From Mycoplasma suis str. Illinois (GTDB lineage Bacteria > Bacillota_I > Bacilli_A > Mycoplasmatales > Mycoplasmoidaceae), in the NCBI RefSeq assembly GCF_000179035.2, contig NC_015155.1, forward strand, positions 124,001 to 188,000: a stretch of 64,000 nt of DNA. Direction: 5' to 3'. Positions 20,550 to 62,336 of the stretch are shown piece after piece (the first letter of the stretch is position 1; each line of letters begins with the position of its first letter). The position numbers and the translations under genes are program-made. The notes below the pieces were generated by a model, which had not been told where the DNA came from, searched no databases, and saw nothing but the letters and a program-made list of their open reading frames with translations.

Positions 20550-20562
20550 ATATAAAGAATAG

Positions 20563-20617: not shown

Positions 20618-20623
20618 TATAAT
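20618..20623 (+). promoter_or_regulatory. TATAAT promoter for the group E gene at 20651
   Basis: TGATTTATATAAT with GAAAGGGGAAA downstream; 27 nt to the ATG. Confidence 0.75.
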
Positions 20624-20650
20624 GAAAGGGGAAATTAGGGTATTTAAGGT

Positions 20651-22844: not shown

Positions 22845-22849
22845 TTAGT

Positions 22850-22879
22850 AAATTACCTTCCTTTTTGGAAGGGTAATTT
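22850..22879 (+). terminator. Terminator after the group E gene ending 22844
   Basis: AAATTACCTTCC pairs with GGAAGGGTAATTT (one bulged G) across a T5 loop. Confidence 0.7.
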
Positions 22880-22888
22880 GTTGATTCA

Positions 22889-22894
22889 TATAAT
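22889..22894 (+). promoter_or_regulatory. TATAAT promoter for the group E gene at 22918
   Basis: TTGATTCATATAAT then AAAAGGGGAAAAA; 23 nt to ATG 22918. Confidence 0.75.
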
Positions 22895-22917
22895 AAAAGG
22901 GGAAAAATTTTCGTTAT

Positions 22918-24029: not shown

Positions 24030-24044
24030 AAATAATATTTTTTC

Positions 24045-25102
24045 ATGCGCATAACATTCAACAAATATGCTTTGATTCCTTTATTTTTTGGAGCCTCATC
24101 TTTTCCATTTTTCCTATCCAAGGAAGGATCAACTTTTAATTTTTTCTCCTTAAACCCTTTTGCTGGGGGGGGCACTTAAGCCCCTCTTTAAATACTTATA
24201 GCTCCAAAAAAGAAAATCTTGGAATATCTAATTCTTTAATTTCTTCTGATTTACCTAAAAATCAATTAACTAATAGCCTTGAAATACCAAAAGATTCAAT
24301 AAATGTAGAAGATAATCTCTCTCCTTTAGTGGAGGGAGATTTGTTACAAGACTTAGAAACCAAATCTACTATAGAAAGTTTTTATTCGGAAGTTCAAAAA
24401 AATGAAAAAACTAAGTCAATAGAAAAGAAATCCTCAAATGATTTAGTAGAAGCTCAGGGAAAATTAACTAACTATAAGGAAAATTTCAAATCAGCTCTTC
24501 AAGAAATGTCTAAGTGAAAAAAAGATTCTGAAGTTCCTAAACAAACAACTAGAGAAAAAAGAGCATCAGAGCCTTTTCAAGAACAACTAAATGTTTCTCA
24601 AAGAAAAGCTTTACTTTATTTCTATAAGGAGTTTTGCGGAATTACAGATAAACAAACAAAATATTCTGAAGAATTAAAGGAAGCCGGAGGATATGGGAGA
24701 AATATTGATTCAGTTAAAAAAGATTTCTGTTCTGAAAAAATCGTTAGTTCTTTAGAAAAAATTGGATGAGAAAAAGAAGAAAGAATTTCTCTCGGACAAT
24801 GAGTGAAAATTTCTGAGGGCCAAGAAGATCCCTTTTCTTTCTTATTAGAAGATTCTTATTTAAAAGAAATTAGAGAAAAAATTTCTTCTTGAGGCGAAAA
24901 ATTAAATACATTTAGAGAAAGTTTAGAGAGACAAAGAACTAGAGGTTGATGAGGGAGAATTCAAGAAAGATGAGCTCCCGGCTCTATTGGAGTTTTTTCT
25001 GGAGAAAAAAAGAAATTTGAAGATGAGTTATCTTACAAGATAGCTCAAAAATTAATGGAGAAACTTCCAATTTCGCAAGAATATGAATTGACGACCTTAT
25101 AG
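24045..25102 (+). CDS. Group E paralog, switched out of frame by a G8 tract
   Basis: ATG 24045 MRITFNKYALIPLFFGASSF, then eight G (24165-24172) and TAA 24177-24179. Six or nine G would read AGGGHLSPSLNTYSSKKENL and continue through REKRASE, SQRKALLYFYKEFCGI, LEKIGW, DPFSFLLE and a final helix to TAG 25100-25102. Near-perfect inverted repeat at 24314-24340 (one mismatch). Confidence 0.82.
24165..24172 (+). repeat. Intragenic G8 tract (frame OFF)
   Basis: In the group E gene at 24045; six or nine G restore the frame. Confidence 0.85.
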
Positions 25103-25136
25103 TAAATTTGGTTTTTTAATAGCTTTAACTATGAAA

Positions 25137-25153
25137 ACCTCCTATAAGGAGGT
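25137..25153 (+). terminator. Hairpin between group E operons
   Basis: ACCTCCT/AGGAGGT with a three-base loop, 34 bases after the stop and just before the next promoter. Confidence 0.6.
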
Positions 25154-25167
25154 GTTAATTTGATTTT

Positions 25168-25173
25168 TATAAT
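25168..25173 (+). promoter_or_regulatory. TATAAT promoter for the four-gene group E operon at 25194
   Basis: TTGATTTTTATAAT, then GAAAGGGGAAAAA; 20 nt to ATG 25194. Confidence 0.75.
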
Positions 25174-25193
25174 GAAAGGGGAAAAATTTGGTT

Positions 25194-26264
25194 ATGTTGT
25201 TGCGAAAAGGGCTTTATGCGTTAATTCCCGCATTAGGAGCAATAGCTCCTTTGTCAACTCTATTATCGCAAAATAGTAATTTAGTTAATTATTTAACTAC
25301 CTCTTTCTCCTCTTCGGGGGGGGGCGCATATGATTCTTTAAGTTTCTCGAAAAGAACTAAAAGAAATTTAGGAAATAATATGAATTACTCTTCCCCCTCA
25401 AAACTAGATTCAAATAGTTTTGAAAGTCAATCAGAATCTTTAGGAATTTCAATTTCTCCAGAAGAGCAGCTTGTTAATTTTCTAGAAGAAAATGACATTA
25501 ACTTGAACTTGAAAAAAGATTCAACTGTCACTACTTTGTTTAAAGAATTAGTTAAAAATTCTCAAACAAAAGAAATTGAAGAAGAAAGTTCATTAAGTTT
25601 GGAGACAGTTAAGAAAAGTTTGGGAGAACACTCCAATAATTTTGAATCAATTATTCAAAAAGTAGAAGAATGAAATAAGAAAAAACAACTTTCTTCTGAA
25701 AAACCAGAATCTTCTAGAGGAAAGAGACAAACAGAAGATCAAGAGATTTCTTTCTCTCCTGAAGAAAGAAAATCTTTATTTTGCTTCTATAAAAAATTTT
25801 CTGAATTGATAGAGAAGCAAAAAGGATTTACTAGTCAATTAAAAAATGTTGAGCAGGGATCAGAAAAAGAAGCTTCGCAAGAGCAAACTTTGAATTCAGA
25901 GAACAAAGTTTTAAAAGCTTTAGAAGAAATAGGTTGAAATGAAGGAGATATGACTGATTTTGGAGAATACTTGAGGGGAGAAAAACGAGGAAAAGATGGA
26001 AGTGATCCTCTTTTATTACTTTTAGAAGATTCATTTTTGCAAAAAATAAGAAATGATGCCGTTAAGTGAAAAGGTTTGACTGATAGTTTTATTAAGGGAC
26101 AAGAGTGACAATATAGAAATGGTTGAACTTTCGGAAGGAGAAGAGATATTGGAAATTCTTTAAAAATTTTTCAAGAACAAACTGGTTCTATAGAGAAAGA
26201 AGCTTTATTTTTAATAGCTTCTAAATTGACAAATGATATGCTAAAAGCTTCAAAAGAACAATAG
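25194..26264 (+). CDS. Group E paralog, in frame (G9)
   Basis: 356 residues. ATG 25194 (MLLRKGLYALIPALGAIAPL) is preferred to the TTG six bases upstream because it matches the other first genes of group E operons. Nine G (25316-25324) read SSSGGGAYD in frame. R-T-K-R after the Gly turn and R-G-K-R before the conserved domain; ERKSLFCFYKKFSEL, LEEIGW, FGEYLRGE, DPLLLLLE, EKEALFLIASKLTND. Hairpin AGGAGC/GCTCCT at 25235-25250. Confidence 0.9.
25316..25324 (+). repeat. Intragenic G9 tract (frame ON)
   Basis: In the group E gene at 25194; encodes Gly-Gly-Gly in frame. Confidence 0.85.
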
Positions 26265-26270
26265 AGTTTT

Positions 26271-27350
26271 ATGCAATTAAGATCAACAATTTATTTATTA
26301 GCTCCCATAATATTGGGAGCTTCCTCTTTATCATTTGTTTTTTCTACATCATCAGTAAATACTGATAATGTGTTTTCTTTATTTTCCTTTATTGATGAAA
26401 TTCGCGGGGGGGGGCATAGAGCAACAACAAGTTTAGAGTTAGGAAATAGATCTAAAAAAGACTTAACAAATAATATGAATCATCAAGAATCTTCAAAAAT
26501 TGATTTGAAAAGCTTAACAAGTCTTCAAAATGATGTAGAAAAAATTTCTGTAACTGAAGATCAAATTTCTAGTATTTTCGAGAAATATGAAATAAATGAA
26601 ATTTTGAGTTCAGATCCGACTATAGAAAATATTTTTAGTGAAATAACTAAAAATAAAGAAACTAAGGAAATTGAGGAAGAGAGCTCTCAAACCCTTGACA
26701 AAGTTAAGCAAATCTTGGTAAATCATACTCAAGATTTTGAGAGAGCGCAAAAAATTATTGAACAGTGATCTAAAAAACAATCATCTTCTCAAGAAGCTTC
26801 TAAATCTTCAAAGTCAAGAAGAAGTGCGGAACAAGAAAGTTCCAAAACTCTTTCTGTACAGGAAAGAAAAGCTTTATTCTGCTTTTATAAAAAATTTTCA
26901 GAATTAAGAAAACAACAGAGAGGATATTCAAATAGATTAAAGAATGTAGAGGGAAAAGAAGTTTTTGAAGAAGCTCAATTTCAAGCACTTAGCTCAAAAA
27001 TGGATATTGTAAGTGCTCTAGAAAAAATTGGGTGAAATGATAGTGATATGAGTAATTTTGGAAAATATCTAAGAAAAGAAATAAATATAGAGGGAGAAGA
27101 TCCTTTATCTGTTCTATTAGATATTTCTTTTCTAGAAAAAACTAGAGGTGAAGCTATATCTTGAAAAGGAAAGATAGAACAATTTATAGAAGGTCAAAGA
27201 CAATCATGTAGAGGCACTTGAGGGCCTTGAAGATGTAGAGATATTTCTTCATCTCTAAATATTCTTCAATCATCTGCAAGCTCCATTGAAGAAGATGCCA
27301 TCATGAAGATAGCCAATAGATTAATGGAAGAAATGATTAAAAATTCTTAA
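26271..27350 (+). CDS. Group E paralog, in frame (G9)
   Basis: 359 residues. MQLRSTIYLLAPIILGASSL; nine G (26406-26414) read IRGGGHRATTS. ERKALFCFYKKFSELRKQQ, LEKIGW, FGKYLRKE, DPLSVLLD. Two extra Cys in a RQSCRGTWGPWRC loop near residue 308, absent from its neighbours. Hairpin GCTCCCA/TGGGAGC at 26301-26320. Six bases after the preceding gene. Confidence 0.9.
26406..26414 (+). repeat. Intragenic G9 tract (frame ON)
   Basis: In the group E gene at 26271. Confidence 0.85.
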
Positions 27351-27359
27351 AAAATAATT

Positions 27360-28463
27360 ATGCAATTAAAAGTAATGTCTTATTTATTAGCTCCCATAGT
27401 ATTGGGAGCTTCTTCATTACCCTTTTTAATTTCTTCTACAGGAAACTCTAATAATAATATTTCTTCCTTGTTTTCTAACTTATTTGTAAATCGCGGGGGG
27501 GGGCATAACACAAGAAATTTAGAGTTTGAGAAACGTTCCAAAAGGTATTTAACAAATAGTATGGGATATTCTAAATCTTCACAACTTGAATTGAAAAACT
27601 TATCAAGTAGTCATCAAAATGACAATATAGAAGTTTTGTTTTCTGGAGGAGAACAAAATCTCAATTTTTTTGATGAAAGTGAAATAAGTGGAATATCAAA
27701 TTCGGATTCCACTATAGGAACAATGTTTAAAGAATTATCAAAAAATCAAAAAACTAAAAAGATTGAAACAGAAAGTTCTAGTAGCTTAGAAGAAGTAAAA
27801 AAGATTTTGGTAGAGCATTCCGAAAACTTCGAAAATATTAGAAAAAATATTGAAAAATGAGAAAAGAAAAATAAAGAAATTTCTTCTGAATCAACTTTGT
27901 CAAGAGGAAGAAGACAAGTTCCTGAAGAAGAAATTAGTCCTCCTTCTCCGAAGGAGAGAAAAGCTTTATTTTGCTTTTACAAAAAATTTTCTGAATTAAG
28001 TCAAAAACAAAAAGGATTTTCTAGTCAATTAAAGAATGTTGAAAAAGGAATAAACTCAGAAGATCCAAAATTTCAACCTCTCACTTCAGAAAATAATGTT
28101 TTGAAAGCTCTAGAAGAAATTGGTTGAAAAGAAGATGGAGATATGCCCCATTTTGGTGAATACCTTAGAGGGGAAAAGAAGGGAGCTCAATTAGATGATC
28201 CAATTTCTTGACTTTTGGATGGAGAATTTCTGAGCAAAATAAGAGGACAAGCTGTTCTTTGAAAAAATAAAACAGAAGATTTTTTAAGAGGACAAGAAGA
28301 GCAATGAAGAAAAGGATGAAGTTGGAGGAGACCAGATCCGGCAACCTTAGCCTCTTCCTTGAAAATTTTTCAAGGACAAACAGGAAATATAGAAAAAGAA
28401 GCTTTATTACTTATAGCTGCCAAATTAACAGGAGAAATGCTGAAAGCTTCAGGAGAAAAATAA
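27360..28463 (+). CDS. Group E paralog, in frame (G9)
   Basis: 367 residues. MQLKVMSYLLAPIVLGASSL; nine G (27495-27503) read NRGGGHNTRN. R-S-K-R after it and R-G-R-R before ERKALFCFYKKFSELSQKQ; LEEIGW, FGEYLRGE, EKEALLLIAAKLTGE. Hairpin GCTCCCA/TGGGAGC at 27390-27409, at the same place as in both neighbours. Confidence 0.9.
27495..27503 (+). repeat. Intragenic G9 tract (frame ON)
   Basis: In the group E gene at 27360. Confidence 0.85.
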
Positions 28464-28593
28464 AGATATGCAGTTAAAAACAACAGCTTATTTATTAGCT
28501 CCCATAGTATTGGGAGCTTCTTCTTTACCTTTTATTTTTTCTCCATCAGGAAATAACAATAGAATGTCTTATCCCTTCTCTTTCTTGAACCTT

Positions 28594-28601
28594 GGGGGGG
28601 G
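28594..28601 (+). repeat. Intragenic G8 tract (frame OFF)
   Basis: In the group E gene at 28468. Confidence 0.85.
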
Positions 28602-28750
28602 CATTCAGGAGTATTAAACTCTTTCAATAATTCGAGAAGTGATTTAGAAGTTTCTAGTTCTCTAATATCCTCCCCGAAAGAGGGAGGATTATTAGTAAAT
28701 AATTTAGAAACTAAAGAAAATTCACCAACTACAGAAGATACTCCTTTATT

Positions 28751-28770
28751 TTTTATAGAATTTTATAGAA
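28751..28770 (+). repeat. 10-bp tandem duplication inside a group E gene
   Basis: TTTTATAGAA twice in a row; one copy fits the family reading frame, two shift it by one base. Confidence 0.8.
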
Positions 28771-29557
28771 GAAGATTTGGGAAAAGAATTGATTCCCAAA
28801 TCTATTGTTGAGGGAGTATTTAAAGAAGTTCAAAAGAATTTTCAAACTAAAGTAATTGAAAATGAATCTTCTAGTAACTTGAAACAAGTGAAGCAAGATT
28901 TAACTGAATTTAATTCAGACTTTTCTGAAGCAGTCAGATTCGTTTATAAGTGAAAAAAGAAAAAGGAAAGTGAAAATACAGAAACTTTATCAAGACCCTC
29001 TAGAAGTAAGAGAATAGTGGAAGAAGAAAAAACAGGACAATTATCTCTTGGGCAAAGAAAAGCTTTATTTAATTTCTATAAAGAGTTTTGCCAAATAAAG
29101 GGTAAGCAAGGTAAATATACTGATAAATTGCAAAAAACCCAAGAGGGCTTGCAATGAGATGAAGAAACAGAATCTATATCTAGAAGTGAATTTATTGAGG
29201 CTTTAGAGAAAATTGGCTGAAGTACAGGTGATAGAGTAACTTTTGGAAAATATCTCAATATAAAAGAAGGAGAAGAGGATCCTTTCTCTAAATTATTAGA
29301 TTCTGAATTCTTAAAAAAAATCAGAAATAAAGTTTCAGATTTAGAGGATTTCATCAAAAAATTCAAGGATAGGATAAATAATCCAAGAACTGGAATTCTT
29401 GCATGAAATCCTAGATTAACAAAATATGCTGGAGGCTCTCTAGGTGTATTTGAAGGAGAATTAGAAAAAATGGAAGATGAAATGTCTAATAGAATAGCTC
29501 AGAAATTAATGAGTAATCTTCCAATTCCAGAAGAATTTAAATCTTCTATATAAATAA

Positions 29558-29583
29558 AAAATAGGGCCAAATGGCCCTATTTT
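29558..29583 (+). terminator. Rho-independent terminator
   Basis: A perfect 12-bp stem AAAATAGGGCCA/TGGCCCTATTTT with a two-base loop, five bases after the stop. Confidence 0.85.
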
Positions 29584-29637
29584 TAGTAATTATTTTTTAA
29601 CTAAAAAATCACTTTAAAAAAGGTATTCATTGGTTTA

Positions 29638-29643
29638 TACAAT
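29638..29643 (+). promoter_or_regulatory. TACAAT promoter for the group E operon at 29661
   Basis: TTGGTTTATACAAT, then AGAGGCAAGAG; 17 nt to ATG. A weaker version of the TATAAT module of the other group E operons. Confidence 0.6.
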
Positions 29644-29660
29644 GAATAGAGGCAAGAGAA

Positions 29661-30743
29661 ATGTTGTTAAGAAAAAGTATATATATTTTAGTGCCCTTGT
29701 TAGGGGGAGCAATTCCCCTAACAACTGTTTTGATTCAAGATAGTAATTTAATTAATTCTTTAACTAATTCCTTCTCTTTTGCGGGGGGGGGCATTTCAAG
29801 CCCATTAGAACTCAAAAGTAGGGAAAAAAGAGAATTAATGAGTGATTCAAGTTTTTCGAAACCAACCACTTCAAATAATTTAGTAGATTTCAGAGGACAA
29901 CAAAGTGACAATTTAGAAATAATTGTCACTCAAGAAACAGATATTTCTCTAACTGAAGAAGACTTGAACCTTAGTTCAAGTTCAGATTCTTCTTCAATTA
30001 ACACAATGTTTAAGGAATTATTGAAAAATTCTCAAACTTCAGATATTCAAAAAGAAAGTTCGAATAGTTTAGAGACAGTAAAAAGTGTTTTGGGAAATCA
30101 TACCTCTAATTTCGAAAAAGTTCAACAAAATGTAGAAAAATGAAAGGAAAAGAAAAAAGAAACTTCTAAAGAAGTTTCTACTCAAAAAGTAAAAAGACAA
30201 GTTTCAAAACAGGAAGAAACATTTTCCATATCCTCGGAAGAAAGAAAATCTTTATTTTGTTTCTACAAAAAATTTGAAGAACTAAATAAGAAGAGACAAG
30301 GATATTCCGAAAAGTTAAAAAATGTTGAACAAGGAAAAAGTTTAGAAGGAAATGAAGAACAAAGCTCTGAATTTACAAATGAAATGCTAGATGCCCTTAA
30401 TGCCATTGGTTGAAATTCAGATGATATGAAAGATTTTGGACAATATTTATTAGGAGAAAAGAAAGATAATAAGGGAAAAGATCCTCTTTCTGTCCTTCTA
30501 GATGCGGAATATTTAAAGAAGATTAGAAAGGATGCGAAAAAATGAAATGGAGTGACTGGAGGTTTTTTAGTAGCTAGAGAGCAAGAAAGAAGAAGTAATT
30601 GAGGTTCACTTGGCTGAAGAGAAAAACACTGAGAATCAGCAATAAATCTTTTTAAGGGAGAATCTAAAGCTGTAGAAAAAGAAGCTTTAATGATGATAGC
30701 TGAAAATTTGGTAAGTAAGATGTTGCCAAAACCAGAGAAATAG
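29661..30743 (+). CDS. Group E paralog, in frame (G9)
   Basis: 360 residues. MLLRKSIYILVPLLGGAIPL; nine G (29783-29791) read FAGGGISSP. R-E-K-R after it; ERKSLFCFYKKFEELNKKR, LNAIGW, FGQYLLGE, DPLSVLLD, EKEALMMIAENLV. Inverted repeats TTAGGGG/CCCCTAA (29700-29721) and AGTGACAATT/AATTGTCACT (29914-29940). Confidence 0.9.
29783..29791 (+). repeat. Intragenic G9 tract (frame ON)
   Basis: In the group E gene at 29661. Confidence 0.85.
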
Positions 30744-30748
30744 GTTTT

Positions 30749-31828
30749 ATGAAGTTAATTTTTAAACCCATTTTCTTGTTATCCATACTTTTTGGAGCCC
30801 CTTCACTATCTTTCTATTTGTTTCAGAAAGATAGTTCTTTGAATCCTTCTGTTTCGCTGTCTTTTTCCCTGCCTGGGGGGGGGCAGTCAACTCCCCTACC
30901 GATCTCTCTAGAACTTAAAGATCGCTCTAAAAGAGATTTAGTAAAAGAATCAAGTTACTCATCTCCAACAAATCTGAATAATTTAGGGAATTTAGAAAGT
31001 CAACAAAATGAAAACATAGAAATTACCATTTCTGAAAATTCAGATTTATCTTTGAATAAAGAAATAGATATAAATTCCAATACAACTATTGGAAATTTAT
31101 TTGGAGAATTATTAAAAAATTCCCAAACTAAAGAGATTCAAAGTCAAAGCTCTAGAAGCTTAAAGGAAGTTCAGGAGAGTTTGGGAAAACATAATTCAAG
31201 CTTTGAGGAAGTCCAAAAAAGTATAGAAGAATGAAATAAAAAGAGAAAAGAAACTCTTAAAGATAATCAAAAAACAAAAAGGCAAGTAAAAAATGAGGAA
31301 GAGATGGTTCCTCCCTCAATAGATTTAGAAAAAAGAAAAGCTTTATTCTGCTTTTATAAAAAATTTGAGGAATTAAGTGGAAAGAAAGAGGGATACTCAA
31401 AAAAATTAAAAAGTGTTGAGGAAGGTAATAATTTAGAAGTAAAAATACAAGATTTCAGTGAAAATAGTGAAATCTTAGAATCTCTTAGAGAAATTGGGTG
31501 AGATAATGGAGATATGAATGATTTTGGAAAATATCTAAGGGGAGAGAAAAAAGGAAAAAATAATAAAGATCCTCTTGAAATTCTTTTAGATTCTGAATAT
31601 TTACAAAAAATTAGAAATGAAGCAATTACTTGGAAAGATAAAACAAGTCAATTCATTAGAGGAAGATATTTAGAAAGTAGAACAGGATGATCAGGACTAA
31701 GAAATAATAGACATTTATCTTCTTCTCTAAATGTTTTTGGCGGAAAAGTTAAGTCAATAGAATCTGAAGCTCTTTCCTTAATAGCTTCAAAATTACTAGA
31801 AAAAATGTTGAGAAAAGTAGAAAAATAA
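30749..31828 (+). CDS. Group E paralog, in frame (G9)
   Basis: 359 residues. MKLIFKPIFLLSILFGAPSL; nine G (30875-30883) read LPGGGQSTP. R-S-K-R after it, K-T-K-R before KRKALFCFYKKFEELSGKK; LREIGW, FGKYLRGE, DPLEILLD, ESEALSLIASKLLEK. Five bases after the preceding gene. Confidence 0.9.
30875..30883 (+). repeat. Intragenic G9 tract (frame ON)
   Basis: In the group E gene at 30749. Confidence 0.85.
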
Positions 31829-31831
31829 ATT

Positions 31832-32948
31832 TTGATTCGTTTGACTAATAAAGCTTTCTTTCTGTTGCCCCTACTTTTCGGAGCACCTTCATTATCTTTT
31901 TATTTATTAAAAAAAGATAGCTCTTTAAATCCTTCTTCTTTATTTTCTTTTTCCCTGCCTGGAGGGGGGCAATAATAGTTCCTCAACTTCTTCAGGATCA
32001 GGATTCCTTGAATCTAAGAAAAGTGAACTAGATATCTCTAACTCTTCGATATCTTCCTCCTCTGAGGGAGGAATGATATCAGTAAATAATTTGAGTGGAG
32101 TTGACAGCTCAATTTCTATAGAAGAAGATTTAGAACTTTTCTTTGAAGAGGAATTTGGACTTTCCACAACTAGTGACTTATCAGTCACAGAGGTTTATAA
32201 AGAAATGAAAAAGAATTTAAAAACTGTAGAGATTCAAACAGAATCATCTCAAAATCTACAAGAGTCACAAGAAAAATTAAATACTTCTACGATGAATTTC
32301 AATTCAGCTCTCGAATCATTTAAAAAATGACAAGAAAAGAAGAAAAAAGAAAGAGAAGGAACTTCTCAAGAACAGAGTAGAGGAAGATCTAGAGGTAAAA
32401 GATCAGTTGAAGATCCTCAAACTCAACTTAGCAAAGATCAAAGAGAAGCTTTGCTCAAGTTTTATAAAGAGTTTTGTCAATTAACAGGAAAAAAGACAGA
32501 ATATTCTGAAAAACTTGATAGAGTTCAGAGAGAAGCAGAAGAATTAGGAGTTCTTAGTTCCAAAGAAAGTGAAATTATTAAAGCTTTAGAAAAAATTGGT
32601 TGAGGAACTAAAGAAAGAATTACTTTTGGAGAATATCTCCATTCTAAAGTGAGTAAAGATGGAGCAAAAGATCCTTTCGATGTTTTATTAGGTGAAGAGT
32701 ATTCTAAAAAAGCTAAAAAACAAGTTATTGATTGAGAGAGAATAATAGAAAACTTTAAAAAGAATCTTTCTAGACAAGGAGGTTTAGGGTGATTGGATTG
32801 ACTAAGAGGAAAACCAATGAGTAATTCGGGAGATATTTTCCAAAAGGAAAAAGAAAAAGTGGAGGATGATATGGTTATGGAAATATCTAGAAGATTATTA
32901 GAAATAATGTTTCCAGATAGAAAGGGAGAATTTTCTTTAAATAATTAA
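31832..32948 (+). CDS. Group E paralog, out of frame at an interrupted G6 tract; TTG start
   Basis: TTG 31832 gives IRLTNKAFFLLPLLFGAPSL and LPGG; the tract is GGA followed by only six G (31964-31969), then CAA-TAA. Five or eight G would read GGGGNNSSTSSGSGFLESKK and run to TAA 32946-32948 with SRGKRSVED, QREALLKFYKEFCQLTGKK, LEKIGW, DPFDVLLG and a final helix. The broken, short tract should slip less, so this copy may be fixed OFF. Confidence 0.78.
31964..31969 (+). repeat. Interrupted intragenic G6 tract (frame OFF)
   Basis: GGA-GGGGGG in the group E gene at 31832; the A interruption sets it apart from all other tracts. Confidence 0.8.
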
Positions 32949-32994: not shown

Positions 32995-33116
32995 TTGAAA
33001 AATTTAGTTTTCTTTATTAAAGGTTTGTTTGCTGGGGGGGGGCATTTCATGTTTTCTCAAAGCTACAAAAAGTTGTAAAGAATTTATTTCCGGAGATTTC
33101 TCCGGAAATTAATTAA
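32995..33116 (+). promoter_or_regulatory. Leader module 4: small ORF with G9 tract and hairpin
   Basis: TTG 32995 opens L-K-N-L-V-F-F-I-K-G-L-F-A, then nine G (33034-33042). In this length it continues GGG-CAT-TTC and stops at TAA 33076-33078, 8 nt before the hairpin ATTTCCGGAGA/TCTCCGGAAAT (33086-33109). Both other frames cross the hairpin, ending at 33110-33112 or 33114-33116, just before ATG 33120. The TAAAAT...TTTGTC block is not recognisable here. Confidence 0.5.
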
Positions 33117-35145: not shown

Positions 35146-35184
35146 AAATTTTTGTTTTTAAAAAATAAATAATTAATGGAGATG

Positions 35185-35207
35185 AAAACCGGAGTTTCTC
35201 CGGTTTT
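35185..35207 (+). promoter_or_regulatory. Leader module 5: CCGGAG hairpin without G tract
   Basis: AAAACCGGAG/CTCCGGTTTT followed by T's, 21 nt before ATG 35229. It has the hairpin of the other leaders but no G tract and no TTTGTC block; it could equally be a terminator for the gene before. Confidence 0.5.
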
Positions 35208-35228
35208 TAAGTAATTAGATTTAAGTAA

Positions 35229-35943: not shown

Positions 35944-36730
35944 ATGCCAGTCAATATTTTTGCTGGAACAAAAATAGTTCCTGTAGTTTTGGGGCTTTCA
36001 GGAATAGCTGCCGGTGGCAGCTTTAGTCTAACTAGTTATTTATCTAATAAGCCTGTTTCTTTTGAAGAGCAAAAACAAATTAATCAAAAAGATCCATCTA
36101 TTAGTGATTTAGATACTTCTACATCAGAAAATTCTCCAAAAATTAGTCCACTTTCTAGCACTTTAATTGAAGTTAAAAATCCAGAGCCACCTAGCGAGGG
36201 ACTGGAAATTCAAGGAATAGATTGAGAAAATAATCCAGAAAATCCTGAAAATCAAAAGATTTATCAGGAAGCTAAATCGAAATCAGAAATAATTGCTGAA
36301 TACATTTATAGGGATTACAGAGAAGGTGATGAAGAGAAAAAAGAAGGGCTTCAACCATTTTGTGAGTATTGAAAAAATCCAAAACAAATTCATGGAACAT
36401 TAGTTTCAAAAGAAGAATGTGAGAAATGAGTTAAAGAAGAAATAAAAATTCCTGAAGATAAACCTGTAATGTGATTTAGAGTTGATAATCAAAATTTTTC
36501 AGAAATTTTTGAAAAGTATTTTTATGAAAAACCTTCATCCTTTGGAAGCTGATCCGTCAGAAGGTAGAGAAGTTTCTTGAATTTTTGGGCAAAAATGATC
36601 ATGCACAACTTCGCAACAAACTAACAGAATAATTGTTAGTTGTGCACAAACAGGAGAAATAATTGATAGTAAAATTTCTCGCCCTCACTTTTGAAATTGA
36701 AGTGTGGATGGACAATCTGTAAGACTATAA
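35944..36730 (+). pseudogene. Group H four-cysteine paralog frameshifted in its C-terminal domain
   Basis: ATG 35944: AGTKIVPVVLGLSGIAAGGSF, linker, AEYIYRDYREG, CEYW, ECEKW, VMWFRVDNQNFSEIFEKYF, then TAG 36565-36567. One extra base near 36535-36541 is enough to explain it: without it the frame reads PSSLEADPSEGREVSW, WSCTT and VSC to TAA 36728-36730, matching the gene at 37389. The lesion is not in a long homopolymer, so permanent damage is more likely than switching. Confidence 0.75.
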
Positions 36731-36860
36731 AATTTAGGTAATTTTGTCTAGTTGAGTTAAGTCTAGAAACTTAAATACTTCTTCCTTGGGGGGGGATATC
36801 GAAAATAAAAATGAAGTTGTAGTTAGTTTTAGTCCGGAGGTAACTCCGGATATTAACTAA
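36728..36860 (+). promoter_or_regulatory. Leader module 6: small ORF with G8 tract, ends on the gene's ATG
   Basis: TAAAAT at 36728 overlaps the end of the gene before. TTG 36744 opens LSSWVKSRNLNTSSL, crosses eight G (36788-36795), continues GAT-ATC-GAA through the hairpin TCCGGAG/CTCCGGA (36833-36850) and stops at TAA 36858-36860, sharing a base with ATG 36860. Its sequence from the tract on is duplicated exactly at 39737. Confidence 0.65.
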
Positions 36861-38863: not shown

Positions 38864-39679
38864 ATGACTTTAGTTGGAACAAAAATAATACCCGTAGTTT
38901 TAGGACTTTCAGGTATAGCTGCCGGCGGCAGCTTTAGTCTAACTAGTTATTTAACAAATAAACCTAATTATGTGGATAGTAAAGAAAATTCTTTACCCTC
39001 AAAACAAAAAGAAATTGATGAGTCCGATAATACACAAGATTTATCTTCTTCACTTTCTGATTTAACAGATTCCGAGGATGAGAAATTAGGTATAGAGGGG
39101 GATAGAGTAGAAGGAAATTTAGAAACTGATATTTCAGATAGTCAATTAGGAGAAGAAATTGAAGATTCTTTCGGATGAGACAATAATTCAGAGAATACTG
39201 AAAATCAGGAAATTTATGAAAAAGCAAAAAGTAGTTCAGGAATAATAGCTGAATATATCTATAGAGATAATGAGTATGACGGAGATGAATTGAGAACTTT
39301 CTGTGATTATTGAACTAAAGTTGATCAAATTAGTGGAACACAAATGCCTGACAAAGATTGTCAGGAATTAGAAAATCAAGAAGAAAAAGAAAAGAATAAG
39401 CCAATAATGTGATTAAGAGCAAATAAGAATGACTTTCAAAATATTTTTCCCAAATATTTCTATCTTTCTTCTGGAGAAACTATTGATCCATTTGAAAATA
39501 AGGGAAAAGAAGATGCAAGATGAACTTACGGAAGTAATTGATCTTGCATAACTACAGAACATTTAGATAAGACAGTTGTTAGTTGTGAAAAAACTGAAGT
39601 ATCTTCTGAAGCAGTGACTCCCGTCAGAAGATCTTTTTGAGATTTAAGTCCAGAAGAACAAACTTTTAGAAGTTCATAA
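38864..39679 (+). CDS. Group H four-cysteine paralog
   Basis: 271 residues. VGTKIIPVVLGLSGIAAGGSFSLTSYL, acidic linker, AEYIYRDNEYDG, CDYW, DCQEL, IMWLRANKNDFQNIFPKYF, WSCIT and VSC with a long tail. AGCTGCC/GGCAGCT (38917-38933) lies in the Gly-turn codons. Its TAA overlaps the TAAAAT of leader 7. Confidence 0.9.
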
Positions 39680-39808
39680 AATTTAGGTAATTTTGTCTAT
39701 TTGAAATAAATTAAGAAATCTGAATATTTTCTTTTCGGGGGGGATATCGAAAATAAAAATGAAGTTGTAGTTAGTTTTAGTCCGGAGGTAACTCCGGATA
39801 TTAACTAA
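39677..39808 (+). promoter_or_regulatory. Leader module 7: G7 version of leader 6
   Basis: TTG 39693 opens LSIWNKLRNLNIFFS, homologous to leader 6, then only seven G (39737-39743). The frame becomes ATA-TCG-AAA and stops at TAG 39768-39770, before the hairpin at 39781-39798. With eight G it would end on the ATG at 39808 like leader 6. Same DNA, one G fewer, opposite predicted state. Confidence 0.65.
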
Positions 39809-43968: not shown

Positions 43969-44022
43969 TAAAATTTTTGTAATTTGTCGAGTTTTTTCTC
44001 CGCAAAACTCAAGAATTTTTAA
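43969..44022 (+). promoter_or_regulatory. Leader module 8: promoter-like block and short ORF, no G tract
   Basis: TAAAAT at 43969 and TTTGTC at 43983-43988; TTG 43984 opens LSSFFSAKLKNF, ending TAA 44020-44022. GAGTTTT/AAAACTC (43989-44010) can pair inside it. Between here and ATG 44139 I see only a distant inverted match, ATGATGTTT (44033-44041) with AAACATCAT (44101-44109). Confidence 0.5.
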
Positions 44023-44138
44023 GGTTTAAGGGATGATGTTTTTTAGAAAAAATGAAAAATCCAAATCTTATAAATTAATTAGGGTTGTTAAAAATTTTTC
44101 AAACATCATTTTTAAAAAATGGTGTTAATTAGGAATTA

Positions 44139-44681
44139 ATGTTAGGAGGTCTAAATTTTTATGGTTGATCTTTAATAGTCGGAACTGCAGGAGCAGTTTC
44201 AGCTGGTAGTTACGGGGCCATAAGCTATTTCGAAAAAGAAAGAAAACTAAATGGATTTTTAGATAGTTGGAATGTAAAAATAACTAATGACAAAATAATT
44301 TCAGGTGAGTACATCAAGAGGGAATATCAAGTTGATGGAGGAAAGAAGGGAGATTGCAGAAAGTGAGAAAATAAAACCCTTACTGTTGTTGGACTAGAAG
44401 AATGTAATAGAAGAATTCAAGAAAAATGAGGACAACCACAAAGTAAACAACCCGAAATTTGATTTAATGCAGATTCATCCAATATTGAAGAAGTTGTAAA
44501 GTCTCACTTTCAAGAAGATAAAAGTCATTCACCTAATTTAACTGGAGTGTCTTTTTCTAGTCAAACATTTGAAGTTGGGGGCTTGAAATGTGAAAGAAAA
44601 AATTCTTCAGATTCCTCAAATATTGAAATAAGCTGTTTCAACAAAAATGAAAAATCTGATGAAGATCAACAAATTAATTAA
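44139..44681 (+). CDS. Group I four-cysteine paralog
   Basis: 180 residues. MLGGLNFYGWSLIVGTAGAV, SGEYIKREYQV, DCRKW, ECNRRI, QPEIWFNADSSNIEEVVKSHF, FEVGGLKC and ISC. The extended GEYIKREYQVDGG block is shared only with the genes at 45517 and 46253, which form a local subset. Confidence 0.9.
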
Positions 44682-44739: not shown

Positions 44740-44858
44740 TAAAATTTTTGTAATTTGTCAAATTTTTTCTAAATTTTTTAAAAAACCACTTGCTGGGGGG
44801 GGCAGTTGACTGTAAAAATTATTTTTTAGATAAGTTTTAGTCCGGAGTTTTCTCCGGA
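44740..44858 (+). promoter_or_regulatory. Leader module 9: block, G8 tract, hairpin; small ORF unclear
   Basis: TAAAATTTTTGTAATTTGTC at 44740-44759, eight G at 44795-44802, hairpin TCCGGAG/CTCCGGA at 44841-44858, ATG 44881. The TTG 44755 frame stops after five codons (TAA 44770). The GCA frame after the tract runs to TAG 44838-44840, touching the hairpin, but upstream it offers only non-standard starts. The ORF part of the model is weakest here. Confidence 0.5.
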
Positions 44859-46892: not shown

Positions 46893-47042
46893 TAAAATTC
46901 TTGTAATTTGTCAAATTTTTTTAGAAAAATAATGAGTTTTGAAAATATAAAAAATTCCTTCTTGGGGGGGAGCATTTGTCCAAAATTATCCAAATAAAAA
47001 CAATTTTGTAGTTAAGTTTTAAGCCGGAGTTTTCTCCGGCTT
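46893..47042 (+). promoter_or_regulatory. Leader module 10: small ORF with G7 tract, predicted stop before hairpin
   Basis: TAAAATTCTTGTAATTTGTC at 46893-46912. TTG 46908 (and ATG 46932, same frame) opens LSNFFRKIMSFENIKNSFL, then seven G (46964-46970) followed by AGCA; the frame ends TAA 46995-46997. The alternative GCA frame would end TAA 47020-47022 on the foot of the hairpin AAGCCGGAG/CTCCGGCTT (47021-47042). Confidence 0.6.
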
Positions 47043-50600: not shown

Positions 50601-50747
50601 TAAAATTTATGTAATTTGTCTAATTTTTCTAAGAAAATGCCTGAATTTATAGTCATAAAAAATTCTTTCTTGGGGGGGGCATTACCACGAAATTCTTCAC
50701 ATAAAAATTACTTTGTAGTTAAGTTTTAGGCCGGAGTTTTCTCCGGC
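50601..50747 (+). promoter_or_regulatory. Leader module 11: small ORF with G8 tract reaching the hairpin foot
   Basis: TAAAATTTATGTAATTTGTC at 50601-50620. TTG 50616 (ATG 50637 in frame) opens LSNFSKKMPEFIVIKNSFL, crosses eight G (50672-50679), continues GCA-TTA-CCA and ends TAG 50727-50729, directly against the hairpin GCCGGAG/CTCCGGC (50730-50747). The other two frames end at 50700-50717, before the hairpin. ATG 50771 follows. Confidence 0.65.
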
Positions 50748-53610: not shown

Positions 53611-54128
53611 ATGTTTCTCAAAGAATTAGGAAGTTTGGGCTGGTCTCTTATCGTCGGGGGGGGTGCGTTAGCGTAGCAGCTGTTGGTGGCCTCGGGGCCA
53701 TCAACTTCTTAGGAAAAGAAAGAGCTCCTCAAGAAAAGCAAAAAACTATTCTAGATTGGTTTAAGAGTGATGTAAAAAATAATCCAAAAATATCCTTCGC
53801 AAGTTATATTGCGAAGAATCAGGGAAATCCAATTTGTGGTAGATGAGTTAATGGTCAATCAGAACTATTAATTCAAAGTGAATGTCAGAAATTGGTTGCT
53901 CAAAAGTGAGAAAACAAACAAGAAGAACAACCAGAAGTGTGATTTGAATCCAAAGAATCAATAATTCAGGAAGCCATTTCTAGTTATTTTGAAAATGAAT
54001 CACAATCTTTATTGTCTACAGTAACTCCAACCGAAACAGGTTGGAGTTACGGAGGACTAGAGTGTAAAAAATCAGAAACTAGAAATTCAGAAGAAAACAT
54101 TCAAGTTAATTGCAATTACTCTGGATAA
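53611..54128 (+). CDS. Group I four-cysteine paralog, switched out of frame by a G8 tract
   Basis: MFLKELGSLGWSLIV, then eight G (53656-53663) and TAG 53674-53676. Six or nine G would read VGGGCVSVAAVGGLGAINFL and a full domain (ICGRW, ECQKL, QPEVWFESKESIIQEAISSYF, LECK, VNCNYSG) to TAA 54126-54128. The only group I gene with an intragenic tract, and the only tract followed by TGC rather than a GCA- or CAA-type triplet. Confidence 0.8.
53656..53663 (+). repeat. Intragenic G8 tract (frame OFF)
   Basis: In the gene at 53611; six or nine G restore the frame. Confidence 0.85.
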
Positions 54129-55845: not shown

Positions 55846-56008
55846 TAAAATTTATGTAATTTGTCAAGCCTTTCTTTCAAAATGTTTGATTTTTCAGAAC
55901 TAAATAACTTGTTGCTGGGGGGGGGCATTCAATGAATATTTTTCATATAAAAATCAACCTGTAGTAGGTAGTTTTAAGTCGGAGGAAACTCCGACTTTTA
56001 TCAACTAA
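55846..56008 (+). promoter_or_regulatory. Leader module 12: small ORF with G9 tract, predicted stop before hairpin
   Basis: TAAAATTTATGTAATTTGTC at 55846-55865. TTG 55861 (ATG 55882 in frame) opens LSSLSFKMFDFSELNNLLL, crosses nine G (55917-55925), continues GGC-ATT-CAA and stops at TAA 55948-55950. The GCA frame would cross the hairpin AAGTCGGAG/CTCCGACTT (55976-55997) and end TAA 56006-56008, 12 nt before ATG 56021. Near-duplicate of leader 13. Confidence 0.65.
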
Positions 56009-56020
56009 ATCAAAGAAATT

Positions 56021-56557
56021 ATGGGAGGATTATTTCTTGTTAAAAAATTAATACCTTTAGTATTGGGTATTGTTGGGATTTTCGGAGCCGGAAGTTATGG
56101 AGCCTTTAATTATTTTGGTAGAGAAATATTGGAAGATATTTCTCTAAATAAGTGATTCAATGACAATACAGATAATGATCCAGAATTAATTTCTGCCGAA
56201 TATATTGTCAGAAATAGAAATAGAGGGGAATCAGATATTTGTAAGAGATGAAAAGGAGGTAAAAAAGAAGAAATTACTAAATATGATTGTGAAGAAAAAG
56301 TTAAGAAAGAGTGAGGAAGTAATATGGAGAGAAGACCAGAAGTGTGATTTAAAGCTGATGAGCAAAGCTTAAGACCACTATTACTTAAATATTTCCCTGA
56401 ATACAAAAGTCAATTATTAGGGCAAGAATCTTTCCCTAAGGGAAGTTGAAAAGTAAGCGGTTTAGTTTGTAGAGGGAATGAAAAAGATGAGACAGAAAAG
56501 AAATTTTTCGAAATTAGTTGTGAACATCAAGAATCTGATGAACCTACAACAAATTAA
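56021..56557 (+). CDS. Chimeric four-cysteine paralog: group J N-terminus, group I body
   Basis: 178 residues. MGGLFLVKKLIPLVLGIVGI with GAGSYGAFNYF, then NKWFNDNTDNDPELISAEYI, ICKRW, DCEEKV, RPEVWFKADEQSLRPLLLKYF, WKVSGLVC and ISC. First gene behind leader 12. Confidence 0.9.
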
Positions 56558-56563
56558 TAAAAA

Positions 56564-57097
56564 ATGTTAGGAGGTTTAAGTAAAAAATTTATATTAATTT
56601 TTCTGGGAATATCAGGAATTTTCGGAGGTAGTGGAGTTTATTTAATGAATAATTCTGGAAGTAATTTGAAATCTATTCCCAAAGTTGATCCCAACACAAT
56701 TGCTGAATATATTTACAAAGATCAGGAATCACAATTGACTTGTGATTACTGAATTAATAATTTGAAGGATAGTTCTAAGAAAACAAAGACACAAGAAGAG
56801 TGTCTTTCTCTAATCAAAGAAGTTGTCGGAGAAGAAAAGAAAGATAAACCAATTAAGTGGTTGAGAGTTCAGTCTATTCATTTCATAAATATTTTCAAAA
56901 GACTTTTCTTTTCTTCCGCAACAAATGATGTTCCTTGAGAAAACTATTTGTCATCTGAACAATGAATTTTTAAGGGTAAAAGTGAAGAGGATAAGTGATT
57001 ATGTTCGAATTCAACTGATAGTAGCGACAAAGTAATTATCAGTTGTGAAAGAACAGATAAGAATGAAATAGATTCCAGCTCTTTAAGTAATAAATAA
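56564..57097 (+). CDS. Group J four-cysteine paralog, short
   Basis: 177 residues. SKKFILIFLGISGIFGGSGVYLM with almost no linker before AEYIYKDQESQ, CDYW, ECLSL, IKWLRVQSIHFINIFKRLF, WLCSN and ISC. TAA overlaps the next ATG. Confidence 0.9.
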
Positions 57098-57624
57098 TGT
57101 TTAGGGGAATTAGTGGTCTTTGATGATCACTTATTATTGGAGCAAGTAGTGCTGTAGCTGCCGGCGGTGCCGGCGCAATTAGTTATTTTGGTAAAGAGTC
57201 TATAGTTGATTTATCTCACTCTACTTGATATGATCAACAAGTTAAAGATGATAAAGACATAACTTTTGCTGAATTTATTGTTAAAAAACCTAAATCAGAT
57301 GATAAAGAAATTTGTAAGAGATGAAAAGAAGGGAAAGTTGTTTCAGTAACTCAAGAAGAGTGTAGACAAATTATTAAAGATAAATGAAATGATCGAGATG
57401 ATCGACAACCAGAATTATGATTCAATGCTGATGAAAAAAGCATAGAAAAAGTTTTATGAAATCATTTTTCTAATGAACATTCTGAATTAGAAAGAAGTGT
57501 TTTTTCCGGAGAAACTTGAAAAGCCGGAAATATGAAGTGTACTAAAAAAGTATCTGAAGAACCAAAAAGATATATAGAAGTTTCTTGTGCATTTGAAGAA
57601 TCTCGAGAACCGGAGGTAAATTAA
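57097..57624 (+). CDS. Group I four-cysteine paralog
   Basis: 175 residues. MFRGISGLWWSLIIGASSAV with two adjacent TGA Trp codons, VDLSHSTWYDQQVKDDKDIT, AEFIVKKPKS, CKRW, ECRQII, QPELWFNADEKSIEKVLWNHF, WKAGNMKC and VSC. Confidence 0.9.
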
Positions 57625-57651
57625 AAGATTTAAGCTTTAGAGACAAAAAAT

Positions 57652-57679
57652 ATTCCACTAATTTAAAGTGGAATGTTTT
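57652..57679 (+). terminator. Rho-independent terminator
   Basis: ATTCCACT/AGTGGAAT (57652-57674) then GTTTTT, 27 bases after the stop and just before leader 13. Confidence 0.7.
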
Positions 57680-57685
57680 TCTCAG

Positions 57686-57846
57686 TAAAATTTATGTAAT
57701 TTGTCTAGTTTTTACTTCAAAATGTTTGATTCTTCAGAACTAAATAACTTGTCGCGGGGGGGGCATTCAATGAATATTTTTCACATAAAAATCAACCTGT
57801 AGTAAGTAGTTTTAAGTCGGAGGAAACTCCGACTTTTAATAACTAA
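57686..57846 (+). promoter_or_regulatory. Leader module 13: G8 near-duplicate of leader 12
   Basis: TAAAATTTATGTAATTTGTC at 57686-57705. TTG 57701 (ATG 57722 in frame) opens LSSFYFKMFDSSELNNLSR, crosses eight G (57756-57763), continues GGG-CAT-TCA and stops at TAG 57800-57802 before the hairpin AAGTCGGAG/CTCCGACTT (57814-57835). The GCA frame would cross it and end TAA 57844-57846. Confidence 0.65.
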
Positions 57847-57858: not shown

Positions 57859-58401
57859 TTGGCAGATTTATTTCTTACTAAAAAATTAATTTTTTCAATA
57901 TTCGGGGTCACAGGAATTTTTGGCGTTGGAGGATATGGAGCTATTAATTATTTAGGAAAAGAACATAAAGTTGATACCTCAACTTATGCGTGATATAAGG
58001 AACATACAAAGGATGTTCAGGGAGTAACTTTTGCAGAATATATTTCCAAAGATCATCAGGATGAAAATAAATCAGTTTGTGGAGAATGAAGGGATTCAAA
58101 ATCAAAAATCTTAAGTCCTGAAGAGTGCAAGAAAAAAGTTCAGGGAAAGTGAAATGGGCAAGATAAAAAGCAACCAGTAGTTTGATTTAATGCTGATAAA
58201 AATAGCATTCAAAAAGCTCTTGAAAGTCATTTTTCAAATGACTATTCAAATGTAGAGCTAAAAGAATTAGAGGGAAATAAAGGTTGGGATACTGGAGGAT
58301 TGAAATGTATTAAAGTGGAAAACTCTTCTGTAAATACAGAGGAACATGTAGAGGTTAATTGTGTTGAAAAAGAAGATACAAGTAATTGAGTTTCTAACTA
58401 A
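57859..58401 (+). CDS. Chimeric four-cysteine paralog: group J N-terminus, group I body; TTG start
   Basis: 180 residues. TTG 57859 gives ADLFLTKKLIFSIFGVTGIF, parallel to the gene at 56021; no ATG is available. VDTSTYAWYKEHTKDVQGVT, AEYISKDHQ, CGEW, ECKKKV, QPVVWFNADKNSIQKALESHF, WDTGGLKC and VNC. TAA overlaps the next ATG. Confidence 0.87.
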
Positions 58402-58940
58402 TGATTTTTAAAGGTTTGGGAGGTTATGGTTGATCTTTGATGGCTGGGATTGTAGGTGCAGTTTCAGCCGGAGGTTATGGAGCAATTAGTCTTTTGGGAA
58501 AAGAACCCTCAGTAGATTTATCAGCCTATAAATGATATAGAGATAATACAAAAAATGTTCCAGAAATAACTTTTGCTGAATATATCGCAAAAGATCAAGA
58601 AGTAGAAAAGAAAGAGTCAGTTTGTGGCGGTTGAAATAATGGTCAAGCAGTATTTTTAAATCCTTCTGATTGTCAGAAAAAAGTTAGTGAGAAATGAAAA
58701 GATCCTCTTGAAAAACAACCAATAGTTTGGTTTAAGTCAGATCAAAAAAGTATTCAAAAAGTTCTTGAAAGTCATTTTTCAAATGACTATTCAGAAGCTC
58801 AATTACAAGTAACAGATAGAGGTTGAACTGCAGCTGGAGGATCTTTGGAATGTATAAAGAAAGTTTCTGAACAAGAGGAACAACAATATATAGAAGTTAG
58901 TTGTTCTTATAAGGAAGAAGAAAAGGGACCTCCAAATTAA
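58401..58940 (+). CDS. Group I four-cysteine paralog
   Basis: 179 residues. MIFKGLGGYGWSLMAGIVGA, YKWYRDNTKNVPEITFAEYI, CGGW, DCQKKV, QPIVWFKSDQKSIQKVLESHF shared with its upstream neighbour, SLEC and VSC. Both ends use overlapping TAATG junctions. Confidence 0.9.
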
Positions 58941-59469
58941 TGTTTAAAGGTTTAAGTAGTCATATATTATCTTCAGTTTTTGGTTTAAGTGTAGTTACTG
59001 CAGGAGGTTATGGTGCAGTAACTCTTTTAAGAAAAGAAGTTAAAGAAGATAATTCTTTTCTTAAGTGATATGAAGGGGATTCTGAAAAAGTTTCAGAAAT
59101 AACTTTTGCAGAATATATTGTTAAAGGTCAATCTAATGGAGAGGGACAAGTTTGCGGAAGATGAGAAAAAGGAAAACAAAATTCTTAGATTCAAATAATT
59201 GTTCAAAAAGAATTAAGGAGAAATGAGAATATAGTTTAAGCAAACAACCAGAAGTTTGATTTAAAGCTACAGAAGAAGATATGGAAAAAGCTCTTTCAAT
59301 TCATTTTTCTAATGAAACATGAACTGTAGAAGTTAAAAAAGTTGGTAATGACTGGGAAGTTGGGCCAATGAAATGTTCTAAAAGTTCAAGCTCTGTAGAA
59401 GATTTAGATAAAAAATATGTTGAAGCTAGTTGCTCTCATAAGGATGAGGATTCAAAGAATCCTAATTAG
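58940..59469 (+). pseudogene. Group I four-cysteine paralog frameshifted after the first cysteine
   Basis: MFKGLSSHILSSVFGLSVVT, LKWYEGDSEKVSEITFAEYI, CGRW-EKGKQNS, then TAG 59186-59188. One additional base in the A-rich stretch 59173-59181 would give KQKFLDSNNCSKRIKEKW, QPEVWFKATEEDMEKALSIHF, MKCS and ASC to TAG 59467-59469. Slippage in short A runs or sequencing error are both possible. Confidence 0.72.
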
Positions 59470-60323: not shown

Positions 60324-61285
60324 ATGGTTAAGGGAGTAGGGAGTTACATACTTTCCGCAGTTTTAGGAGTTGGTGGAGCTGCAGCTGCCGGTAGTTATGG
60401 AGATGTTAATTACTTCAGCAGAAGTAATCAGGTAAATGTAGAAAAAATAAGGATTCAGGAGGGGTAGATTCTAGTGACTCTAGAGGAGTTGAAGGGGTTT
60501 TGGGAGATAGAAGTAATACTGATATAAGTCCAGAAGATGGAAGAGTTGAAGATAGCTCAAACCATATTGATAATTCTCGCCCCGAGAACACTCAAAGATT
60601 AATTGGCGATCAAGTAAATATAGATAGTGACTCTCCAAATTCAAAAATTCTTGAAACAAGTGATGATTCCTCAACTTACGCTAATCACCCACAAACTGAT
60701 GGTCAAGGTGATGAATTTTTAAAAACACCTAAAAGTCAAGATATTGAGTTAACTGTCGAAAGCAATCCTTTAGATTTCTCAGTTAGCACAATAAATTCTG
60801 AAATTAGTGATTCTATAAATTCACAACAAGAAGTAAGTTCATTACCTTTTGCAGAATATATCTACAATGTAGGAGATAAATCTTCTTATTGTGAAGAACT
60901 AATTTATAGTTCTTCAACACAATATAGAAGAAAGGATATGGGAAATACAGAATGCTCTAAATTGATGGAGAAAGCAAGAGAAATGTCCGGAAATCAAGAA
61001 ATACCTTTAAAGTGATTTAGAACAAATGATTCTGGTTTTAAAGATTCTGTGAAGGAATTTTTATCTTCAGGTAGAGAAGATATAAATTCCTTTACTTATG
61101 AGAATTTTTCAAGAGGAAAAGAAATTAATGGTCATAATTGCTTTTCAAGTCAGGGAGATGATTCTGAAGAATTAATAGTTAGTTGTTTTGGAATTTCACC
61201 AGATTCAGAGGAAGAAGATCTAAGAACTTATGAAGAAGTTAATTTCACTGAAGAAGATAGAAGATTTAATTTACAAGAAAACTAG
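60324..61285 (+). pseudogene. Group K paralog out of frame at an A6 run
   Basis: ATG 60324: SYILSAVLGVGGAAAAGSYG, NVEK, then A6 (60442-60447) leads to TAG 60465-60467. Seven A would read EKNKDSGGVDSSDSRGVEGV and continue 270 codons: acidic linker, AEYIYNVGDKS, CEEL, ECSKL, LKWFRTNDSGFKDSVKEFL, NCFSS and VSC to TAG 61283-61285. Position right behind the anchor is where other copies switch with G tracts, so a poly-A switch is conceivable. Confidence 0.75.
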
Positions 61286-62205: not shown

Positions 62206-62336
62206 TAAAATCTAGGTAATTTGTCAAGAAATTAATCATTTTTTAGTTGCTGGGGGGGGCAAATAAAAAAAGAAAAAATCAAATTGTAAGGGAAATATGA
62301 ACCGGAGGTAACTCCGGTTTAATAAAAGACCTTTAA
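62206..62336 (+). promoter_or_regulatory. Leader module 14: block, G8 tract, hairpin
   Basis: TAAAATCTAGGTAATTTGTC at 62206-62225, eight G at 62252-62259, hairpin AACCGGAG/CTCCGGTT at 62300-62319. The TTG 62221 frame ends after four codons, but TTG 62247, five bases before the tract, opens LLGGANKKRKNQIVREI-W (TGA Trp), crosses the hairpin and ends TAA 62334-62336, three bases before ATG 62340. The other two frames after the tract stop at 62264 and 62288. Confidence 0.55.

Follow-up and report, generated by a model that had tools for sequence, protein, structure and literature searches.

G-tract leaders with covarying hairpins ahead of Mycoplasma suis paralog operons: candidate phase-variable attenuators

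The genome of the pig blood parasite Mycoplasma suis strain Illinois contains at least 18 leaders, all between 112 and 207 kb and each ahead of look-alike genes, that combine a G-tract with a downstream hairpin of the CGGAG..CTCCG type. The anatomy of these leaders is directly visible in the DNA, and we consider it an evenly balanced proposition that it represents a phase-variable, translation-dependent, attenuator-like cassette under slipped-strand control at the head of each operon.

The window analysed here comprises 64,000 nucleotides, bases 124001–188000 of the 742,431-bp single-contig genome; positions are window coordinates throughout, and TGA was read as tryptophan (code 4) for the genes as well as the leader frames. 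The assembly derives from 454 reads alone at 38.6x coverage, and a one-base error is possible in any tract length given here. The region constitutes a tandem array of paralogs with hydrophobic N-termini, in which 28 of 58 consecutive ORFs are spaced by −1 to +10 nt. Profile searches against Pfam and NCBIfam yielded no family for the array paralogs, and neither an Rfam scan of the window at gathering score nor a tRNA scan gave a match.

Two near-duplicate leaders, starting at 55846 (copy 1) and 57686 (copy 2), illustrate the arrangement. The first-pass annotation had described them as nearly identical, and aligning 55846–56008 with 57686–57846 indeed gave 150 identical positions in 163 columns (92%). 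The DNA upstream of the pair shows background identity (54%), and the first genes behind the two leaders (56021–56557 and 57859–58401) share 34% protein identity. In each leader a promoter-like box is followed by a short frame with an ATG start, a G-tract and a GNRA hairpin of 9 bp:

55846–55862, + strand: promoter-like box TAAAATTTATGTAATTT, copy 1 (motif search)
55882–55916, + strand: 5′ part of putative leader ORF, copy 1, ATG...MFDFSELNNLLL (ATG open to the tract)
55917–55925, + strand: G9 tract, copy 1 (G8 would select the GCA frame)
55948–55950, + strand: TAA ending the G9-selected frame, copy 1, 25 nt before the hairpin
55962–55964, + strand: conserved stop, copy 1, 11 nt before the hairpin; TAG within CTGTAG, which most leaders have as TTGTAR
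55925–56008, + strand: open GCA/GTA frame, copy 1, AFNEYFSYKNQPVVGSFKSEETPTFIN, crossing the hairpin and ending at TAA 56006–56008
55976–55997, + strand: hairpin AAGTCGGAG-GAAA-CTCCGACTT, copy 1 (−14.2 kcal/mol; family covariation)
56021–56557, + strand: first gene behind copy 1, a paralog with hydrophobic N-terminus, 178 aa (code 4)
57652–57674, + strand: end hairpin of the preceding operon, ATTCCACT..AGTGGAAT then GTTTTT, 11 nt before the copy 2 box
57686–57702, + strand: promoter-like box, copy 2 (motif search)
57722–57755, + strand: 5′ part of putative leader ORF, copy 2, ATG...MFDSSELNNLS
57756–57763, + strand: G8 tract, copy 2 (G9 or G6 would select the GCA frame)
57800–57802, + strand: TAG stop used with G8, copy 2, 11 nt before the hairpin
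57763–57846, + strand: open GCA/GTA frame, copy 2, AFNEYFSHKNQPVVSSFKSEETPTFNN, ending at TAA 57844–57846
57814–57835, + strand: hairpin, copy 2
57859–58401, + strand: first gene behind copy 2, TTG start, 180 aa

The tract lengths of G9 and G8 were as annotated. Read from the ATG at 55882, copy 1 encodes MFDFSELNNLLLGGGIQWIFFI (TGA as W); it exits the G9 in the GGC frame and meets its stop 25 nt ahead of the hairpin. Copy 2, read from the ATG at 57722, encodes MFDSSELNNLSRGGHSMNIFHIKINL, exits the G8 in the CAT frame and ends 11 nt short of the hairpin. Both ATG-read frames fall short of the hairpin and the GCA frame crosses it in both copies, in agreement with the earlier description. The different frames had been attributed to the different tract lengths; the frames do differ, but copy 2 has also lost one base directly 5′ of the tract, its ATG-to-tract distance being 34 nt compared with 35 nt in copy 1. 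The prediction that G8 would put copy 1 into the GCA frame stands, but because of this lost base copy 2 would need G6 or G9 rather than the G7 or G10 originally proposed. The few differences between the copies leave the GCA frame open, as noted before; the three codons that differ downstream of the tract (Y/H, G/S and I/N for copy 1/copy 2, the I/N codon with two base changes) are nevertheless all non-synonymous, and the pair alone therefore provides no indication that the peptide is under selection. In copy 1 the GCA frame is free of TGA codons. The U-run regions following the two hairpins read CTTTTATC and CTTTTAAT.

A pattern search, yielding 16 leaders and then two more, placed the 18 tracts at −11464, 176, 7935, 33034, 36788, 39737, 44795, 46964, 50672, 55917, 57756, 62252, 64437, 67429, 71313, 74412, 76484 and 83039, all of them G7–G9. 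The promoter-like box, with the sequence TAAAATNTNNGTAATTT or one closely resembling it, is present in 16 of the 18, and nearly all of its copies in the genome fall inside the array. It lies 46–71 nt before the tract, a distance that rules out the tract as a promoter-spacer element. Boxes 7208 and 43969 head operons that have neither a tract nor a CGGAG..CTCCG-type hairpin. Besides the pair, the following leaders were delineated:

107–232, + strand: box, G8 at 176, hairpin 209–232
7868–8009, + strand: box, G8 at 7935, hairpin 7987–8009
33034–33109, + strand: G9, hairpin 33086–33109
36728–36850, + strand: box, G8 at 36788, hairpin; TAATG of the open frame overlaps the gene start
39677–39798, + strand: box, G7 at 39737, hairpin
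44740–44858, + strand: box, G8 at 44795, hairpin; no crossing frame, the longest ending at the hairpin foot
46893–47042, + strand: box, G7 at 46964, hairpin; longest frame ends at the hairpin foot
50601–50747, + strand: box, G8 at 50672, hairpin; longest frame ends at the hairpin foot
62206–62319, + strand: box, G8 at 62252, hairpin 62300–62319

Some neighbouring elements deviate from this layout. At 43969–44139 the box is present without a G-tract and a long AT-rich imperfect hairpin occupies the place of the GC hairpin, possibly representing a decayed leader. Just before box 107, a hairpin at 58–82 is built from C8 and G9 tracts (TCTCCCCCCCC gag GGGGGGGGAGA), both arms of which could slip. 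The first gene behind leader 7935 carries a G8 tract near its start (8090–8097), and this operon may have two switches in series.

The leader hairpin is an RNA structure. Among 14 distinct hairpins evaluated against 500 shuffles, compensatory changes were found in five of eight hairpin pairs, amounting to 12 cells compared with 2.8 in the shuffles (none of the 500 as high; G-U pairs included), and offset structures obtained by sliding the hairpin failed the same covariation test. The hairpins of the 18 leaders comprise 5–11 bp, are located 17–66 nt downstream of the tract, have mostly GTAA, GAAA or TTTT loops and are the dominant fold, with a probability of at least 0.96, in 16 of the 18 folded leaders. 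The CGGAG..CTCCG hairpin sequence occurs 20 times in the genome, always within 112–207 kb. Hairpins of this family are also found at operon ends, at 7152–7173 in the window and at 71185–71204, 74291–74312 and 76372–76394 beyond it, these four lying 21–46 nt before the next promoter box. The U-runs are short, the longest near the leader hairpins averaging 2.4, and operon-end hairpins before the next box are just as poor, with 2.7. The leader hairpin may act by terminating transcription, as opposed to obstructing translation. A function of the G-tract as antiterminator partner of the hairpin was ruled out, as the folds offer it no consistent pairing partner. Between two genes at 35176–35212, a 12-codon ORF (MEMKTGVSPVFK, followed by a stop) runs across a CCGGAG..CTCCGG hairpin without any G-tract.

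Frame crossing and stop placement were evaluated in 15 leaders against dinucleotide shuffles. The existence of one hairpin-crossing frame had originally been taken as a sign in itself, a view that we abandoned: such a frame is found in 12 of the 15 leaders compared with 10.7 in the shuffles (P = 0.31), about 71% of AT-rich leaders being expected to have one at such a distance, and a third frame crossing the hairpin was rejected as evidence on its own since it is equally common in shuffled leaders. A stop codon 6–13 nt before the hairpin was observed in 14 of 15 leaders, with 4.7 expected and none of 2000 shuffles reaching this number. This stop (TAG or TAA) belongs to a conserved TTGTAR motif; leader 44795 keeps the TAG and has lost the G of GTA. 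The frame reading the motif as a GTA codon reaches the hairpin in all 14 leaders evaluated, compared with 9.2–9.3 expected from shuffles with TTGTAR held fixed (P = 0.0007–0.002, or P = 0.01–0.02 in reduced sets with related leaders removed), the leaders being related by descent and all P values reported here consequently optimistic. The other free frame extends to the hairpin in 6 of 14. Across the family, stop placement and GTA-frame openness are not due to chance. Each of the 18 leaders has at least one frame reaching the hairpin and one that does not. The GTA frame crosses the hairpin in most of them and ends at its foot in 44795, 46964, 50672 and 76484, a position from which the 5′ arm would still be covered by the terminating ribosome.

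An ATG from which the frame stays open up to the tract is present in 7 of 15 leaders, which is no enrichment (P = 0.10), the others having only TTG or none, and in 44795, 62252 and 74412 no start codon lies further than 8 nt upstream of the tract. At the codon level the GTA frame gave a marginal result (P about 0.05) with the first codon position varying most, and protein-level selection on the leader peptide was set aside on these marginal tests. The initial model, in which tract length sets the frame and one frame crosses the hairpin, fits the anatomy and is supported better by the family of 18 than by the pair. Crossing is not universal, however, with no such frame in 44795, 46964 and 50672 and two in some other leaders; moreover, several leaders lack a plausible start codon and the hairpins mostly lack a U-run.

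In the proposed attenuator, transcription would start at the TAAAAT box and a short leader ORF would be translated into the G-tract, whose length would change by slippage between generations and thereby set the frame in which ribosomes exit. In two of the frames ribosomes would usually stop at the conserved TAG/TAA 6–13 nt ahead of the hairpin, just clear of it, so that the hairpin would form and the operon stay unexpressed. In the third, which is the GCA frame in the pair and reads the conserved GTA codon, ribosomes would reach or cross the hairpin and melt it, and the operon would be expressed. Both copies of the pair would be off as assembled. This mechanism is favoured by the pairing of a G7–G9 tract with the hairpin before a gene in 18 leaders, the two tract-less box leaders lacking the hairpin as well, by hairpin covariation, stop placement and GTA-frame openness, by the 92% likeness of the leader pair while the genes have diverged to 34%, and by pil1 of S. 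gallolyticus as a direct precedent proven by mutation. Against it stand the short U-runs, the start codons absent in some leaders, the marginal codon-level result, the non-synonymous differences within the pair, a possible role of TTGTAR as an RNA motif and the 454-only tract lengths.

This layout resembles that of the pil1/pil3 surface-protein operons in Streptococcus gallolyticus (Danne et al. 2014, PMC3894217), with a short repeat in the leader region, a candidate leader ORF, a frame set by repeat number, OFF frames that end before the hairpin and ON frames that end just before, in or past it. In the S. gallolyticus pil1 leader, 22 GCAGA repeats make the leader end well before the terminator, and with 21 or 23 repeats it ends 4 bp before or within the terminator and transcription of the operon is strong; mutants of the start codon, the stop and the stem as well as chloramphenicol agree with translation-dependent attenuation, and removal of the T-run abolished termination (PMC3894217). 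Switching of pil1/pil3 is stochastic, as that of the M. suis leaders would be. The latter carry a G homopolymer instead of GCAGA pentamers, in at least 18 copies instead of two, and their weak U-runs and indistinct start signals differ from pil1/pil3 with its clear start codon, ribosome-binding site and T-run hairpin, proven by mutation. With translation-mediated attenuators of the E. coli trp type the proposed mechanism shares that the ribosome position on a leader ORF decides the formation of a downstream hairpin; unlike these, the M. suis leaders show no alternative antiterminator pairing and no stalling codons, sense no metabolite, and have a DNA repeat as the variable.

G-tract slippage and tandem paralog arrays are likewise features of the coding or promoter tracts of Neisseria and Campylobacter and of gene-internal tracts in the window; in contrast to these, the leader tract is situated downstream of the promoter and ahead of the hairpin, and an entire operon would be under its control. 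The gene-internal tracts belong to a neighbouring family at 17198–31969, whose layout suggests ordinary coding phase variation: the G9 genes 25316, 26406, 27495, 29783 and 30875 are uninterrupted and the G6, G8 or G10 genes 17198, 19569, 20773, 23035, 24165, 28594 and 31964 are interrupted soon after the tract. Paralogs split between frames are also found at 53613–54128, 58940–59469 and 60324–61285, the first at a G8 tract (53656) and the other two without a long tract, and are pseudogenes or 454 errors.

Beyond M. suis, 58 further genomes, among them six from the same genus, were searched for the tract-hairpin pattern, and none contained it. In the stretches of the 564,395-bp M. parvum genome that were read, three leader-like G7–G9 tracts (5862, 7613, 9119) are located just before the first genes of a related family. 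One frame of each ends 3–6 nt before the gene start, and their hairpins are AT-rich, weak or absent, none being GC-rich; they neither confirm nor refute the M. suis reading.

The main rival to the attenuator is translational coupling, which we regard as unlikely. The leader ORF would here be the ribosome entry of the operon, the right frame ending at or beside the first start codon and permitting reinitiation, and the hairpin would block only early-stopping ribosomes and leave transcription unaffected. A hairpin-crossing frame does end either 3 nt upstream of the gene start or in overlap with it in seven of 18 leaders, by the GTA frame in 7935, 33034, 36788 (TAATG), 39737, 62252 and 67429 and by another in 76484, which together with the close spacing of the array ORFs, the frame ends of the three M. 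parvum leaders and the weak U-runs after the leader hairpins is in line with coupling. The remaining 11 leaders have no such frame end, the longest frame of 44795, 46964 and 50672 ending about 40 nt before the gene, and hairpin melting is therefore the more general rule.

Comparably improbable is a non-translational element, in which hairpin and TTGTAR would be an RNA structure or a protein-binding site acting in stability, processing or as operator, the G-tract would tune spacing or merely be tolerated, and the open frames would be a by-product. TTGTAR could be an RNA motif, as TTGTA is conserved amid variation at a near-fixed 17–20 nt from GGAG in most leaders, and the codon-position entropy, not clearly coding, and the leaders devoid of start codons point the same way. 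Yet TTGTA is followed exclusively by A or G, the bases compatible with a stop codon, leader 44795 preserves the TAG at the loss of the GTA, and GTA-frame openness exceeds that of motif-keeping shuffles; G-U pairs and variable stem length speak against a DNA operator, and the tract has no consistent pairing partner. That the tract has no function, the leaders being duplicated or gene-converted remnants with lengths partly due to 454 errors, appears very unlikely: the strong likeness of leader pairs suggests recent copying, the assembly is 454-only and the number of crossing frames by itself does not exceed chance, but covariation and stop placement hold across diverged leaders, and the gene-internal tracts, uninterrupted at G9 in five of five cases and interrupted at other lengths, indicate that tract lengths are informative. 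Rho-dependent polarity is unlikely, as the two matches to the Rho model, likely ATP-synthase-type ATPases, both scored far below the cut-off.

A full-text literature search, with most subscription journals outside its reach, returned no description of the M. suis leaders; genome papers on hemotropic mycoplasmas report large paralog families and speculate on phase variation in general terms without naming a switch. The leaders may bear on how these bacteria persist for life in the host. More tentatively than for the single cassette, we suggest that at least 18 independent DNA-encoded on/off attenuators operate in parallel, one before most operons of the array, in which slippage would decide on hairpin melting and whole operons would be shuffled combinatorially in chronic infection. 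If true, whole-operon switching would exist in an uncultivable lineage in which no Rho was found and terminators are weak, and a mechanism of the pil1 type, to date reported from a single Streptococcus, would have arisen or be used at much larger scale in a minimal bacterium. Antigen expression could then be predicted without culture, using DNA obtained straight from blood.
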